Below are positions 20,046 through 25,598 of a DNA stretch of 64,000 nucleotides, piece after piece. The stretch lies in NCBI RefSeq assembly GCF_006363955.1, contig NZ_CP040948.1:124001-188000 (forward strand), in the 5' to 3' direction. Position 1 is the stretch's first letter. Each line of letters starts with the position of its first letter. A program made the translations under genes and the position numbers. The DNA is from Methylophilus medardicus. Its GTDB lineage: Bacteria; Pseudomonadota; Gammaproteobacteria; Burkholderiales; Methylophilaceae. A model generated the notes under the pieces. It made no database searches. It was not told the DNA's origin and worked only from the letters and a program-made list of their open reading frames with translations.

Positions 20046-22943
20046 TTATTTTAATTTGGCTAACTGTGTTTGCAGTTTGTCCAAATTGGCACTGAACTCA
20101 GCTAAACGTGCTTGTTCTTGCTCGACTACAGCCGCTGGGGCGCGCGCGACAAAGCTTTCGTTGCCTAGTTTGGCATTGGCTTTGCCAATTTCTCCTTCTA
20201 GGCGGGCGATTTCTTTCCCCAAGCGCTCTTTTTCAGCGGCGATATCAATCTCCACTTTGAGCATCAGCTTAAAGTCTGCGGCCAGCATAACCGGTGCATC
20301 CGCTTCCGGCAGTTCAGCCACGATATCGACGTTTTCTAGCTTGGCTAGCGACTTAAGGTACGGCGCAAAGGCTGCTAACTGTTCGGCATCGCCCGCCGCA
20401 ATCAGCGGCACTCTGGCGGCCGGGGAAATACTCATCTCGCCACGCAAACTGCGGCAAGCTTCTACCGCTGTTTTAAGGGTAGCCACCCACGCCTCGGCTT
20501 GCTCGTCGATTTTTTCCAAATCGGCTTTGGGGTAAGCTTGCAGCATAATGCTTTCGGTGCCGCGCGACGGGTCTTTTAACGCGGTCATTGGGGCAATCGT
20601 TTGCCAGATTTCCTCAGTAATAAATGGAATAATCGGGTGTGCCAAGCGTAATATCGTCTCGAGCACCCTGAGTAAGGTGCGGCGGGTTGCGCGTTGCTCT
20701 GCGGCACTGCCCCCTTGTATTTGTACCTTGGCGATTTCAAGATACCAGTCGCAATACTGGTCCCATACAAACTCATAAATAGCCTTGGCCGCTAGATCAA
20801 AGCGGTAATCGTTAAAGGCACGCTCCACCTCGGCTTCGGTGCGTTGCAGCAGGCTGACAATCCAGCGATCTGCCTGACTGAATTTGCGACCACCGTCTTC
20901 ACAACTTTCTGCGCCAAAGCCATTGTCTTGGCCTTCGGTATTCATCAGCACAAAGCGTGTGGCGTTCCAAAGTTTGTTACAGAAATTGCGGTAGCCTTCG
21001 CAGCGTTGCAAGTCGAACTTGATGTCGCGGCCGGGCGAAGCAAGGCTGGCAAAGGTAAAGCGGAGTGCATCCGTGCCGTAAGCCGCAATCCCTTCAGGGA
21101 ATTCTTTGCGCGTACGCTTTTCAATTTTTTCGGCGTCTTTCGGGTTCATCAGCCCCGTCGTGCGTTTTGCAATTAAAGCATCTAGATCAATGCCGTCAAT
21201 CAAATCAATCGGGTCAAGCACATTGCCCTTCGATTTTGACATTTTCTGACCCTCTGCATCGCGAATGAGCCCATGCACGTAGACATGCTTAAACGGAATT
21301 TTGCCGGTGATGTGTTTGGTCATCATGACCATACGCGCCACCCAGAAGAAAATGATGTCAAAGCCTGTCACCAACACAGAAGAGGGCAAAAACTGTTGCA
21401 GTGCCTGGTTTTGCGCGTCTATGGCTTCGTCACCGGTCCAATCTAGCGTGGAGAAAGGCCAGAGTGCGGATGAGTACCAAGTGTCTAGTACGTCATCATC
21501 ACGTTTTAAGTGGCCGGTGTAACCCTCTTTTGCAGCCATTTGTTTGGCTTCGGATTCATCATGCGCCACAAACACTTCGCCATTGTCGCCATACCAAGCA
21601 GGGATTTGATGTCCCCACCACAGTTGGCGAGAGATGCACCAATCTTGAATATTATTCAGCCATTGGTTGTAGGTGTTCACCCAGTTTTCTGGATAAAACT
21701 TGATCTCGCCATTGGCAACCACGTCCAAAGCTTTTTCAGTGATGCTCTTGCCGTCGGCGGCCGGTTTGCTCATGGCCACAAACCACTGGTCGGTGAGCAT
21801 CGGCTCAATCACGACATTGGTACGGTCACCGCGCGGCACTTTTAGTTTATGTTTTTCGACCTTGACCAGCAAACCACTCGCTTCAAGGTCGGCCACCACT
21901 TGTTTGCGGGCGGCAAAGCGTTCAAGCCCCACCAAGTGTGAAGGTAATTCGATGGCGGCTTTGCTGCGACCATCGGCAGCAATCACCTCGGCGCTCGCGG
22001 GGATAAAGCCTTGTAAGTTTAATATGACAATCTTGTCAAGGCCCTGACGTTGCCCAACCATATTGTCATTAAAGTCATGCGCAGGCGTCACTTTCACCAC
22101 GCCTGTACCAAATTCTTTATCAACGTAATCATCCGCAATAATCGGAATTTCACGGCCACACAGCGGAAGAATGACTTTTTTTCCTATTAAGTGTTTGTAG
22201 CGCTCGTCTTCTGGATTCACCATCACTGCGACGTCGCCCAACATCGTTTCCGGGCGGGTTGTTGCCACGGTTAATGCACCCGAGCCATCCGCCAAGGGAT
22301 AGTTGATGTGCCACATTGCACCATCTTCTTCCTCTTGCACAACTTCTAAATCTGACACGGCGGTGCCTAGTTTTACATCCCAATTCACCAACCGTTTACC
22401 ACGGTAAATCAGGCCTTCGTGATACAGGCGTACAAAGGTTTCGGTGACGACTTTGTTGAGGCCCGCATCCATGGTGAAGCGCTCGCGACTCCAGTCAGGA
22501 GAGGTGCCTAAGCGACGCATCTGTTGGGTGATGGTGCCGCCGGAGTACGCTTTCCATTCCCAAACTTTTTCGAGAAATTTTTCACGGCCCAAGTCGTGGC
22601 GACTCACGCCTTGCGCGTCCAACTGGCGCTCTACCACAATCTGAGTGGCGATGCCCGCGTGGTCAGTACCCGGTTGCCACAAGGTATTGTCGCCACGCAT
22701 GCGATGGTAGCGAGTCAGCGCATCCATGATGGTCTGGTTAAATCCGTGACCCATGTGCAGCGTGCCAGTGACGTTGGGTGGCGGCAGCAAAATGCAGAAA
22801 TTTTCTTGCACTTGTGGGTTCATGCCAGCGGCATAAAATCCTTTGCCTTCCCAAAAGGCATACCACTGACTTTCAATGGTTTTTGGGTCAAAAGATTTGG
22901 CGAGTTCGCGGGATGGTTGGGCGTTTGTGTGAGAAGTATTCAT
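20046..22943 (-). CDS. valS: Valyl-tRNA synthetase
   Basis: ValS charges tRNA-Val. The 965-residue class I synthetase carries the HIGH-type motif LHMGHGFN in [14 protein letters not shown] near residue 60, an editing (CP1) domain, the KMSKS motif in [14 protein letters not shown] near residue 568, an anticodon-binding domain, and the C-terminal coiled-coil arm (from about residue 895) that is typical of bacterial ValS. Length is normal. The photolyase-like gene lies upstream on the same strand with a gap of about 60 bases, so the two may be co-transcribed. Confidence 0.98.
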
Positions 22944-23006: not shown

Positions 23007-24221
23007 CTAGCCCATCAGCATGGGCTCAACCACTTTCCAATAGCGACTAAAACGCATCAGCTGATGGTCGCTGAGGGGGACATCTGTCAGGCGCGGCGCC
23101 TCTCGCCACTCGACATTGAGGCCCGCCACCGCTTTTTTCAACACTTGCTGCGGCGTGTTTTGCGTCAAAATGCGGCCTTGTACCTGTTGCTGTAATACCT
23201 GTCTGGTCTCGCCCAGCCAAACCGCAACCTGTGGCATCTCAGCCAAACAGTCGGCCATGAATTGCAGGCGCTTGAGGGGCCAGTGCTGATACAGTGCCGG
23301 GTCAAACACAAATACTGCGGGCAGATTGAGCGCCAGCAACGGTTGTGCGGGCGATAACATTTCGTCATGCACCCATATTAGGCTGGCAAGTCCTTTTGGG
23401 GGGATTTCAGAGGATTGCAGGCCGTGTGATACAGCGGTGTCCACAGGTGCGACCTCGGTGAATAGTTTTAGCTGAAGCTGCTCATAGCTTTGGTCAAAAG
23501 GGCACTTCACCGTGCATTGCTGGCACCAAGACTCCCCACCAAATTTCACTATGTTTTCTTTGTTAAAGTAATAGGGTTTGCTACTAAAGCTGGAGGCAAT
23601 CCATTGCCATGACAGGTGATTAGAAGCGATGTCGCCATCGAGTAACTGGCTTTCAAACCAGTCTGCCGCCTGACGCCAATCGATTTTTAGCCAGTGCAAT
23701 AGGTAAGCGGCGAACCACATGCGCGCATGGTTATGCACATAGCCTTTTTGTTGCAAGGCGCGCACGATTTCATCCATGCATACCAACCCAGTAAAACCTT
23801 GTGGAATAAATGCGGGGAGCGCTTTATTGCCAAGCACGACTTTTGACGACTCCATCGGCTGCATGATGGCCTCGCCAAACCGGTACCAGGCCTGTTGAAA
23901 GTAATCGCGATAGCTGAGCTCGGTGACTAACTTGACGGCTTTTTGACCAAACCGCGCTTTCACGTCCGCAACCGCTTCAGGCAACGAAAGGCAACCATGG
24001 CGTAAATAGGGCGATAGCTGACTGACCGCGCCCTCTAAATGATTACGTGTGCGTGCGTAAGCCTCGGCATCCACCGCGACTAAGCGCGCCAGCGCCTCCG
24101 TGCGGCCTCCATGCCATTCAGGACCAAGATCCGGCCCTTCTGCGTGTGAAAAATAGGCGCGGACCTGCGCTAAGCGGGTCTCGCGGTCGGTGGCGAAAGT
24201 GAGGAGGGCAGGCGGACTCAT
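23007..24221 (-). CDS. Photolyase/cryptochrome homologue with swapped domain order
   Basis: The 404-residue product begins directly with the helical FAD-binding half of a photolyase: WHGGRTEALARL (36-47), SQLSPYLRHGCLS (67-79), ELSYRDYFQQAWY (101-113), KGYVHNHARMWFAAYLLHW (159-177), then LLDGDIASNHLSWQWIASS (193-211) and KPYYFN. A CxxCxxxC cluster follows (Cys233, 236, 240). The last 125 residues look like the antenna alpha/beta domain that normally stands first: SLIWVHDEMLSP (280-291) for the usual VWFRxDLR, AVFVFDPALY (302-311), LKRLQFMADCLAEM (316-329), WLGETRQVLQ (335-344), ending RFSRYWKVVEP. So the order is reversed compared with canonical enzymes. DNA repair or light sensing is plausible; activity is unknown. 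Confidence 0.85.
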   Translation of the reverse strand: MSPPALLTFATDRETRLAQVRAYFSHAEGPDLGPEWHGGRTEALARLVAVDAEAYARTRNHLEGAVSQLSPYLRHGCLSLPEAVADVKARFGQKAVKLVTELSYRDYFQQAWYRFGEAIMQPMESSKVVLGNKALPAFIPQGFTGLVCMDEIVRALQQKGYVHNHARMWFAAYLLHWLKIDWRQAADWFESQLLDGDIASNHLSWQWIASSFSSKPYYFNKENIVKFGGESWCQQCTVKCPFDQSYEQLQLKLFTEVAPVDTAVSHGLQSSEIPPKGLASLIWVHDEMLSPAQPLLALNLPAVFVFDPALYQHWPLKRLQFMADCLAEMPQVAVWLGETRQVLQQQVQGRILTQNTPQQVLKKAVAGLNVEWREAPRLTDVPLSDHQLMRFSRYWKVVEPMLMG

Positions 24222-24285: not shown

Positions 24286-24753
24286 ATGACGACATTATGG
24301 TGGTGGTGTGGGCTAGGCCTCGTGCTACTGTGCGTCGAAATGCTCATCGGCTCGCTATATTTTCTGTGGCTGGGCATCGCAGCCTTGGTCATGGCTGTGC
24401 TATGTGCAATCTTCAACGACATGCCGCTGGCCTTGCAAGCGGTGAACTACGCAGTCCTCGCGGCGGTGGCGCTTGCGGTGATGCGCAAGTGGGAGAAGCA
24501 TCAACCGGACCACCGTGTGGGGCAGGCCCAGGGCGAAGAAATCGGCCGTGAAGGGATTGTTTTTGTAGCCATTACGCCACAACAGCCCGGTAAAATACGT
24601 TTTAGTCCGGGCGTGTTGGGTAGCCGTGAATGGGTGGCCTACGCCAACATCCATATCGCCGAGAAACAAGTCGCTAAAGTGGTCGCTGTGGAGGGTAACG
24701 CGCTACGCGTTGCGCCTGCATCGACCTCAATCATTGAATCAAGGGAGTTGTGA
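24286..24753 (+). CDS. NfeD-like membrane protein
   Basis: The 155-residue product has two or three membrane helices (residues 4-70) and a C-terminal soluble OB-fold-like domain (about 80-145, EEIGREGIVFVAITPQQPGKIRFSPGV is split around its first strands). NfeD proteins are the usual partners of SPFH/band-7 proteins such as QmcA and are thought to organise membrane microdomains. Here the partner gene follows with a one-base overlap (TGATG), which supports the call. A run of seven G lies before the start. Confidence 0.88.
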   Translation: MTTLWWWCGLGLVLLCVEMLIGSLYFLWLGIAALVMAVLCAIFNDMPLALQAVNYAVLAAVALAVMRKWEKHQPDHRVGQAQGEEIGREGIVFVAITPQQPGKIRFSPGVLGSREWVAYANIHIAEKQVAKVVAVEGNALRVAPASTSIIESREL

Positions 24754-25598
24754 TGACCGAAGTCAGTATTATTGTAATCATATTAGTGATCATCGCCATC
24801 GTAAAAGGCGTGCGTATTGTGCCGCAGGGCGAGGAGTGGGTAGTTGAGCGTCTCGGCAAATTCGCTGGCATTTTGGCCCCTGGGCTGCATGTGATCAACC
24901 CAGTGTTGAGCACGGTGAGCTACAAAGTCACCACCAAAGATATTATTTTAGACGTGCCCGAGCAAGAGGTGATTACCCGCGACAACGCAGTGATTTTGGC
25001 GAATGCGGTGGCATTTATTAAGGTCAGTAACATTGAGCGCGCAGTCTACGGGATTGAAAACTTTCGCGAGGCAATGCGCAATATGGTGCAGACCAGCTTG
25101 CGCTCAATTATTGGCGGCATGGATTTAAACCAAGCACTGACATCACGTGACCGCATCAAAGCCGAGTTGAAAGAAGCCATCGCTGACGAAGCGCTGGATT
25201 GGGGATTGACGGTCAAAAGTGTCGAGATTCAGGATATCAAGCCGTCTGCTAATATGCAGGACGCGATGGAGCGCCAAGCCGCAGCTGAGCGAGAGCGTGT
25301 GGCGGTGGTGACTGAGGCCGAAGGCGCTAAACAGTCATTGATTTTAAATGCCGAAGCGCGCCTAGAAGCGGCGCGTAAAGATGCTGAGGCACAAATGGTG
25401 GGTGCCAGGGCGTCTGCTGAGGCGATTAAAATGATTACCGAGGCTGTCAAAGAAAATAACGCCTCGGCGACCTTCTTGCTGGGGGATCGCTATATTCAAT
25501 CCCTGCAAAAAATGGCTGACTCGCATAACAGCAAAATTGTGGTCATGCCCGGCGATGTGATCAGTGCAGTGAAAAGTCTGGTCGGTGGCGGTAAATAA
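24753..25598 (+). CDS. SPFH/band-7 membrane protein (QmcA/paraslipin-like)
   Basis: The 281-residue product has an N-terminal membrane anchor (residues 5-22), the band-7 start VRIVPQGEEWVVERLGKF, the SPFH core to about residue 180, and an Ala/Glu-rich coiled coil (about 170-235) that drives oligomerisation, ending with GDVISAVKSLVGGGK. Such proteins form ring-like assemblies in the inner membrane and influence protein quality control. The ATG at 24753 has a good AAGGGAG 5 bases upstream and overlaps the NfeD stop; a GTG at 24750 is less likely. Confidence 0.92.
   Translation: MTEVSIIVIILVIIAIVKGVRIVPQGEEWVVERLGKFAGILAPGLHVINPVLSTVSYKVTTKDIILDVPEQEVITRDNAVILANAVAFIKVSNIERAVYGIENFREAMRNMVQTSLRSIIGGMDLNQALTSRDRIKAELKEAIADEALDWGLTVKSVEIQDIKPSANMQDAMERQAAAERERVAVVTEAEGAKQSLILNAEARLEAARKDAEAQMVGARASAEAIKMITEAVKENNASATFLLGDRYIQSLQKMADSHNSKIVVMPGDVISAVKSLVGGGK

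Follow-up and report, generated by a model that had tools for sequence, protein, structure and literature searches.

Can a photolyase carry its two domains in reversed order? The question is raised by one gene in a 64,000-nucleotide stretch of the Methylophilus medardicus genome (contig NZ_CP040948.1, positions 124,001 to 188,000; this whole stretch is called the window hereafter), whose product was initially annotated as a photolyase/cryptochrome homologue with the flavin adenine dinucleotide (FAD)-binding helical domain in front and the antenna-binding alpha/beta domain behind. Our analysis makes it highly probable that this gene encodes an inverted iron-sulfur-type photolyase of the Phr4/Phr5-Phr6 kind, within the group termed "short photolyase-like" (SPL).

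To identify the first domain, the whole protein was searched against several collections. Pfam placed PF03441 (FAD_binding_7) at residues 100-228 (E 1e-23) and returned nothing besides it at E≤10; no PF00875 domain was thus found N-terminal to the FAD domain, as a canonical class I photolyase would have, nor any match to PF04244 (DPRP), the mark of the FeS-BCP (PhrB) type. Photolyase and cryptochrome models of NCBIfam fell inside residues 36-220, a sixth match (E 0.15) being unrelated. When phmmer was run against PDB, photolyases and cryptochromes were matched over approximately residues 31-230, and every one of the 39 sequences at E≤0.01 was named photolyase, cryptochrome or RE11660p; the best E was 2.5e-18, and a solved structure from a close relative was therefore not among the matches. 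Two printed phmmer alignments also set residues 299-352 against the chain's N-domain, at a sub-threshold 0.6 and 0.5 bits. Our FAD profile spanned most of the first 260 residues (loci L083 and L115), and the FAD-binding domain is N-terminal, as had been proposed. The full-length AlphaFold2 model (69-sequence alignment; predicted local distance difference test, pLDDT, 94.4; predicted template modelling score, pTM, 0.92) retrieved photolyases in Foldseek, with 1iqr at the top (E 6e-9, 233 columns); since Foldseek aligns in chain order, this match speaks for the FAD domain and not for the swap.

The second domain was assigned by profile comparison. Thirty-five tails, of which 19 came from fused genes and 16 from stand-alone ones, were combined into a profile; compared with an N-domain profile of 45 ordinary photolyases, it gave a match over 132 columns (probability 97.2, E 4.2e-11, score 72.5), which began at the first strand and extended to the FTPFW-like motif that closes the domain (RFSRYWK in the window protein). 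The reversed tail profile scored 18.8 and ten column shuffles at most 20.4, and a Usp control profile, a weak control with 5 sequences kept from 26 loci, scored 12.6; when the photolyase set was reduced to 13 random rows, five draws scored 55.2-66.4. Among 33 relatives' tails (alignment A2), 12 matched PF00875 at E≤1, and so did six of ten that were scanned singly, with a best E of 2.2e-4; their alignments kept register with the Pfam profile (for instance 4-61 to 2-63, 60-130 to 71-151 and 42-131 to 44-152). In the AlphaFold2 model of the tail (33-sequence alignment; pLDDT 88.0, pTM 0.76) five strands alternate with helices, and its top Foldseek match was the S. elongatus (6-4) photolyase 8ijy (prob 0.98, TMq 0.55); no match reached E≤0.001, and the remaining 49 listed matches had prob 0.63 or less. 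These comparisons support homology of the C-terminal domain to the photolyase alpha/beta (antenna) domain, and with it a reversed FAD/alpha-beta order, with which the predicted models are in keeping; the alignment claimed by the initial annotation is thereby borne out. Because the top Foldseek match was a prokaryotic (6-4) photolyase, derivation of the tail from the PhrB-type N-domain (DPRP) was tested as well and rejected, the DPRP profile scoring 31.3 against the tail versus the 55.2-66.4 of ordinary N-domains in a comparison that is unbalanced (11 sequences from 14 loci, 3 having been missed by the motif).

A CxxCxxxC cluster had been noticed at what was taken for the new domain junction. 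In alignment A1, C148, C233, C236 and C240 were present in all 36 FAD domains of the iron-sulfur (FeS) type, from 18 fused and 18 unfused genes. Since the four cysteines are kept in both alike, the cluster belongs to the FAD domain and not to the fusion; the idea of a metal cluster finds support, the residues being putative iron-sulfur ligands by homology, whereas its placement at a junction did not hold. From this conservation, an iron-sulfur cluster on C148/C233/C236/C240 is very probable.

The initial annotation knew of no described permuted enzyme. The literature says otherwise: Synechococcus Phr4/Phr5 and Cyanobium Phr6 share the order of FAD before photolyase domain, as two adjacent open reading frames (ORFs) or one fused, together with four cysteines (PMC9426592), and NewPHL/SPL proteins are called inverted, single-strand cyclobutane pyrimidine dimer (CPD) enzymes (PMC13274461). 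The reversed-order layout is already described as a kind, and the window gene alone adds one member. Like Phr4/Phr5 and Phr6, the present group has an N-terminal FAD domain, an alpha/beta domain at the C-terminus or in a second ORF, and four cysteines, a likeness drawn from the published descriptions. The cluster cysteines of RS9916 Phr4 are C169, C254, C257 and C263 (PMC9426592); the C169-to-C254 spacing of 85 is identical to that of C148 to C233, but the final two cysteines are 6 apart there and 4 apart in the window protein. The split loci surveyed here also differ from Phr4/Phr5, as their ORFs mostly overlap by a few bases. PMC9426592 did not decide between a heterodimer of the phr4 and phr5 products and a joining of the two ORFs by programmed frameshifting; a possible heterodimer had been suggested in 2012 (PMC3441193).

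NewPHL proteins resemble the window protein in their FAD-first order, length of approximately 400 amino acids and identical lesion-site residues, but they are defined by a C-terminal Z-domain behind the FAD domain and by lacking the iron-sulfur cysteines, which the window protein has. In 21 NewPHL-type rows the counterpart of C148 was found in 11, that of C233 in 1 and those of C236 and C240 in 0, and these proteins form a separate clade. The tail hidden Markov model found nothing at E≤1e-3 in the 39 NewPHL-type loci (L042-L080). A C-terminal profile of 37 of them (L045 and L060 were dropped, the start motif missing) scored 32.7 against the tail profile and 29.0 against ordinary N-domains, with shuffles against the latter at 14.9 or less; homology of the NewPHL tails to this tail is suggestive, not proven. 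SPLs, described in PMC9649867, PMC9178010 and PMC9498864, some reportedly with an iron-sulfur cluster, likewise lack an alpha/beta domain ahead of the FAD domain; in the window protein this domain is present C-terminally, and in split relatives as a second gene. FeS-BCP/PhrB-type (6-4) photolyases share the FAD domain and putative iron-sulfur cysteines but have the conventional order. Our literature search on permuted, split, two-subunit and Chloracidobacterium photolyases, which mostly did not extend to subscription papers, showed no title on unlinked halves among those listed.

To examine the likely activity, active-site residues were mapped through the phmmer alignment to the A. nidulans photolyase. 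Its E283, N349, M353, N386 and W392 align with E101, N164, M168, N201 and W207, which are invariant in 36/36 FeS-type and 21/21 NewPHL-type rows; we take E283, N349, M353 and W392 to be dimer-contacting residues. Two of the three tryptophans that we assume to form the electron chain (W314, W367 and W390) align with W182 (36/36 FeS-type rows) and W205 (34/36). PMC9426592 lists 13 flavin-site residues for the A. nidulans enzyme; nine of them, namely Y228 (to Y55, read by eye), S241, L243, S244, R287, N349, D380, D382 and N386, align with the same letter in the window protein. As the active-site residues are of the CPD kind, CPD repair would be the likeliest activity and, judging from the alignment, is likelier than (6-4) repair.

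Several observations weigh against the reading as an inverted photolyase and are considered here together with the competing explanations. Four of the 13 flavin-site positions are mismatched (T240 to V66, A385 to S200, W280 to a gap, T346 to Y161; position 346 is printed as W in the aligned A. nidulans chain), R350 is replaced by H165 in 57/57 rows, and W286 by Y104 in the window protein, where 30 of the 36 FeS-type rows have W. The same protein could be a (6-4) photolyase, which we regard as unlikely. N164 and M168, invariant in 57/57 rows, align with N349 and M353 of the CPD enzyme, whereas the Drosophila (6-4) photolyase has histidines, and PDB titles list its mutants H365N and H369M, at what are presumably the N349 and M353 positions. 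SPLs are moreover described as CPD enzymes, citing Xu 2021 (PMC9649867). On the other hand, PMC9426592 argues for (6-4) activity, predicting it for Phr4/Phr5 from the cysteines and invoking the UV-C (ultraviolet C) results of the phr4 mutant, whose survival was lower.

A cryptochrome-like light sensor, binding FAD and performing no DNA repair, would fit a classical electron chain whose third tryptophan is missing (W314 aligns with L130) and the presence of three further photolyase-family genes in the genome (PF00875-bearing near 248 kb and 757 kb, DPRP-bearing near 1.98 Mb). Such a function is nevertheless quite improbable, for 57/57 rows share the lesion-site residues E101, N164, M168 and W207, and phr4/phr5 protected E. 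coli from UV-C, albeit with no significant difference between light and dark (PMC9426592). It might finally be argued that the protein is a FAD domain with an unrelated C-terminal tail, the case that the initial annotation had itself named as its refutation. Indeed, residues 275-404 searched alone gave no match to PF00875 at E≤10; in Pfam as a whole this tail had no significant match, just a chance-level one to Telethonin (E 0.12), the Pfam cut-off for PF00875 was reached by 0/10 of the singly scanned tails, and the Foldseek E for 8ijy was just 0.068. The profile score set beside its ten shuffles, the PF00875 matches of other tails and the photolyase at the top of the Foldseek result all contradict this view, to which we attach hardly any weight; it was rejected on the profile comparison and its controls.

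If the protein is an inverted photolyase, its FAD domain would bind FAD, the cluster on the four cysteines and the DNA lesion, and the alpha/beta domain, following a short linker, would pack on the FAD domain in much the same way as the N-terminal domain does in ordinary photolyases. The reduced flavin, once excited by light, would then donate an electron to the pyrimidine dimer flipped out of the DNA, presumably a CPD, and the dimer would split. The enzyme is one fused chain in Methylophilaceae and is encoded by two genes in many relatives, where two subunits would assemble.

How is this order distributed? Homologues were surveyed as the initial annotation had proposed. The best 80 of 588 candidates were taken as related loci from genome contigs, and every stop-to-stop frame of at least 40 amino acids was searched with both the tail and the FAD profile. 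Among 42 FeS-type FAD loci (L001-L041 and L116, own copies uncounted; L015 and L017 both come from a single fragmented assembly), the tail lay in the same open frame in 19, in an adjacent or overlapping frame in 20, and nowhere nearby in three; tail and FAD gene were thus fused or adjacent in 39/42. In one of the three (L032), the contig ends one base past the FAD frame, and its genome yielded no tail. The other two (L037 and L038) are labelled Chloracidobacterium, and a whole-genome search located the tail on another contig; by our reading of the sequence, it sits there beside an mnmA-like gene. Among 247 sampled genomes of the same phylum, the tail was present at E≤1e-12 in at least four, the genome of L037 included, a lower bound since at most 16 candidates were scored per genome. 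In genomes G643, G670 and G712, which appear Chloracidobacterium-like from the resemblance of their FAD proteins to those of L037/L038, both halves were on contig C1, at 1.45, 0.99 and 0.97 Mb from each other along the contig read linearly. Both halves are thus present and non-neighbouring in five genomes; each of the five FAD proteins has the four cysteines and stops at 259-260 amino acids, and the approximately 1.5 kb flanking the FAD gene on either side showed no tail.

Both states occur on Deinococcus plasmids: in sp. AJ005 the protein is fused (456 amino acids), and in sp. QL22 the two halves form a split pair. In the plasmid search 167 records matched at E≤1e-5, 3 of them with at least 80% query coverage, and 3 of the 167 were examined. 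On a Persicobacter plasmid (L159, 2761-7048) the FAD profile matched with 193 bits and no tail match was seen; two further ORFs weakly matching the FAD profile follow this gene. Within Methylophilaceae, the tail was matched at E≤0.001 in 37 of 80 genomes. Thirty-five of these matches were strong (E<1e-30), and the open frames that contain them, at 406-531 amino acids, are all long enough for the fusion; the remaining two, weak at E>1e-4, may represent other photolyases. The whole protein was matched somewhere in 229 of 398 genomes of the window's phylum, and among the matches listed only the window's own and that of G070 (213 bits) exceeded 103 bits.

To trace the fused state, an unrooted tree of 55 FAD domains was built, in which L015, L017 and L116 were not included, 15 of the 39 NewPHL-type loci were, and the label "unlinked" includes L032. 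The 15 NewPHL-type rows fell on one side (support 100/100). The 15 rows from Methylophilaceae are fused and group in a single clade (100/99); the split state is found in its closest neighbours on the tree, Ferrovum and further betaproteobacterial assemblies. The fused state required three changes, two of them forced by well-supported branches. Given these changes and the split relatives, the tree suggests gene fusion or fission; circular permutation, as the initial annotation termed it, remains apt for the order of the domains, not as a one-step event. As the tree is unrooted, either the split or the fused state may have come first.

The unlinked halves bear on the assembly of the enzyme. Being non-neighbouring in five genomes, they cannot be joined by frameshifting, which argues for a true two-subunit enzyme. 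We lean slightly towards a branch that is natively of two subunits, one with FAD and the iron-sulfur cluster and one alpha/beta, with genes approximately 1 Mb apart in the Chloracidobacterium type, and that became fused in reverse order in Methylophilaceae, some Acidobacteriaceae and others. If so, such "short photolyases" do have an antenna-type domain, and one argument for placing them at the origin of the family, as ancestors without this domain, falls. What is added here is the spread beyond the cyanobacteria of the earlier papers, as fused, split and unlinked genes; the survey would also aid annotation, as for the QL22 tail gene, annotated "hypothetical protein".

Table 1. Features of the inverted photolyase gene (window positions) and coordinates of selected relatives (positions within each locus)
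Feature	Coordinates	Strand	Remarks
Whole ORF, probable inverted-order FeS-type photolyase (Phr6/SPL-like)	23007..24221	minus	404 amino acids, ATG start, intact
FAD-binding helical domain with N-terminal lead, ~residues 1-259	23445..24221	minus	Pfam, phmmer, Foldseek, profiles
Putative flavin-/lesion-site residues in FAD domain: S67, L69, S70, E101, R105, N164, M168, W182, D195, D197, N201, W205, W207			by alignment
Cys148, fourth putative iron-sulfur ligand	23778..23780	minus	kept in 36/36 FeS-type rows
Cys233, Cys236, Cys240 (C-x2-C-x3-C), putative iron-sulfur ligands at end of FAD domain	23502..23525	minus	36/36 FeS-type rows
Inter-domain linker, ~residues 260-278	23388..23444	minus	contains lowest-confidence stretch of the model; FAD ORF of split relatives stops near its start
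C-terminal alpha/beta domain, residues 279-404	23010..23387	minus	homologous to N-terminal DNA_photolyase domain of ordinary photolyases; own short ORF in split relatives
Alpha/beta genes, five genomes with unlinked halves	L155 (1498-2013), L156 (1498-2277), L178-L180		
FAD genes, same five genomes	L181-L185		
Deinococcus plasmid loci	L158 3669-4199; L157 2893-4263		

The surroundings of the gene were named from reading the ORFs. A valyl-tRNA-synthetase-like gene (window 20046-22943) on the same strand starts 63 bases past the photolyase stop, and NfeD/stomatin-like genes (window 24286-25598) are divergent from the photolyase gene. The nearest conventional photolyase gene in this genome is the one near 248 kb, approximately 100 kb off. 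In several surveyed loci the inverted, split or NewPHL-type gene has a conventional photolyase gene (469-543 amino acids) adjoining or overlapping it, as in L006 (3409-5001), L007 (2613-4232), L008 (3352-4983) and L010 (3240-4832), and also in L020, L022, L029, L034, L042 and L048.
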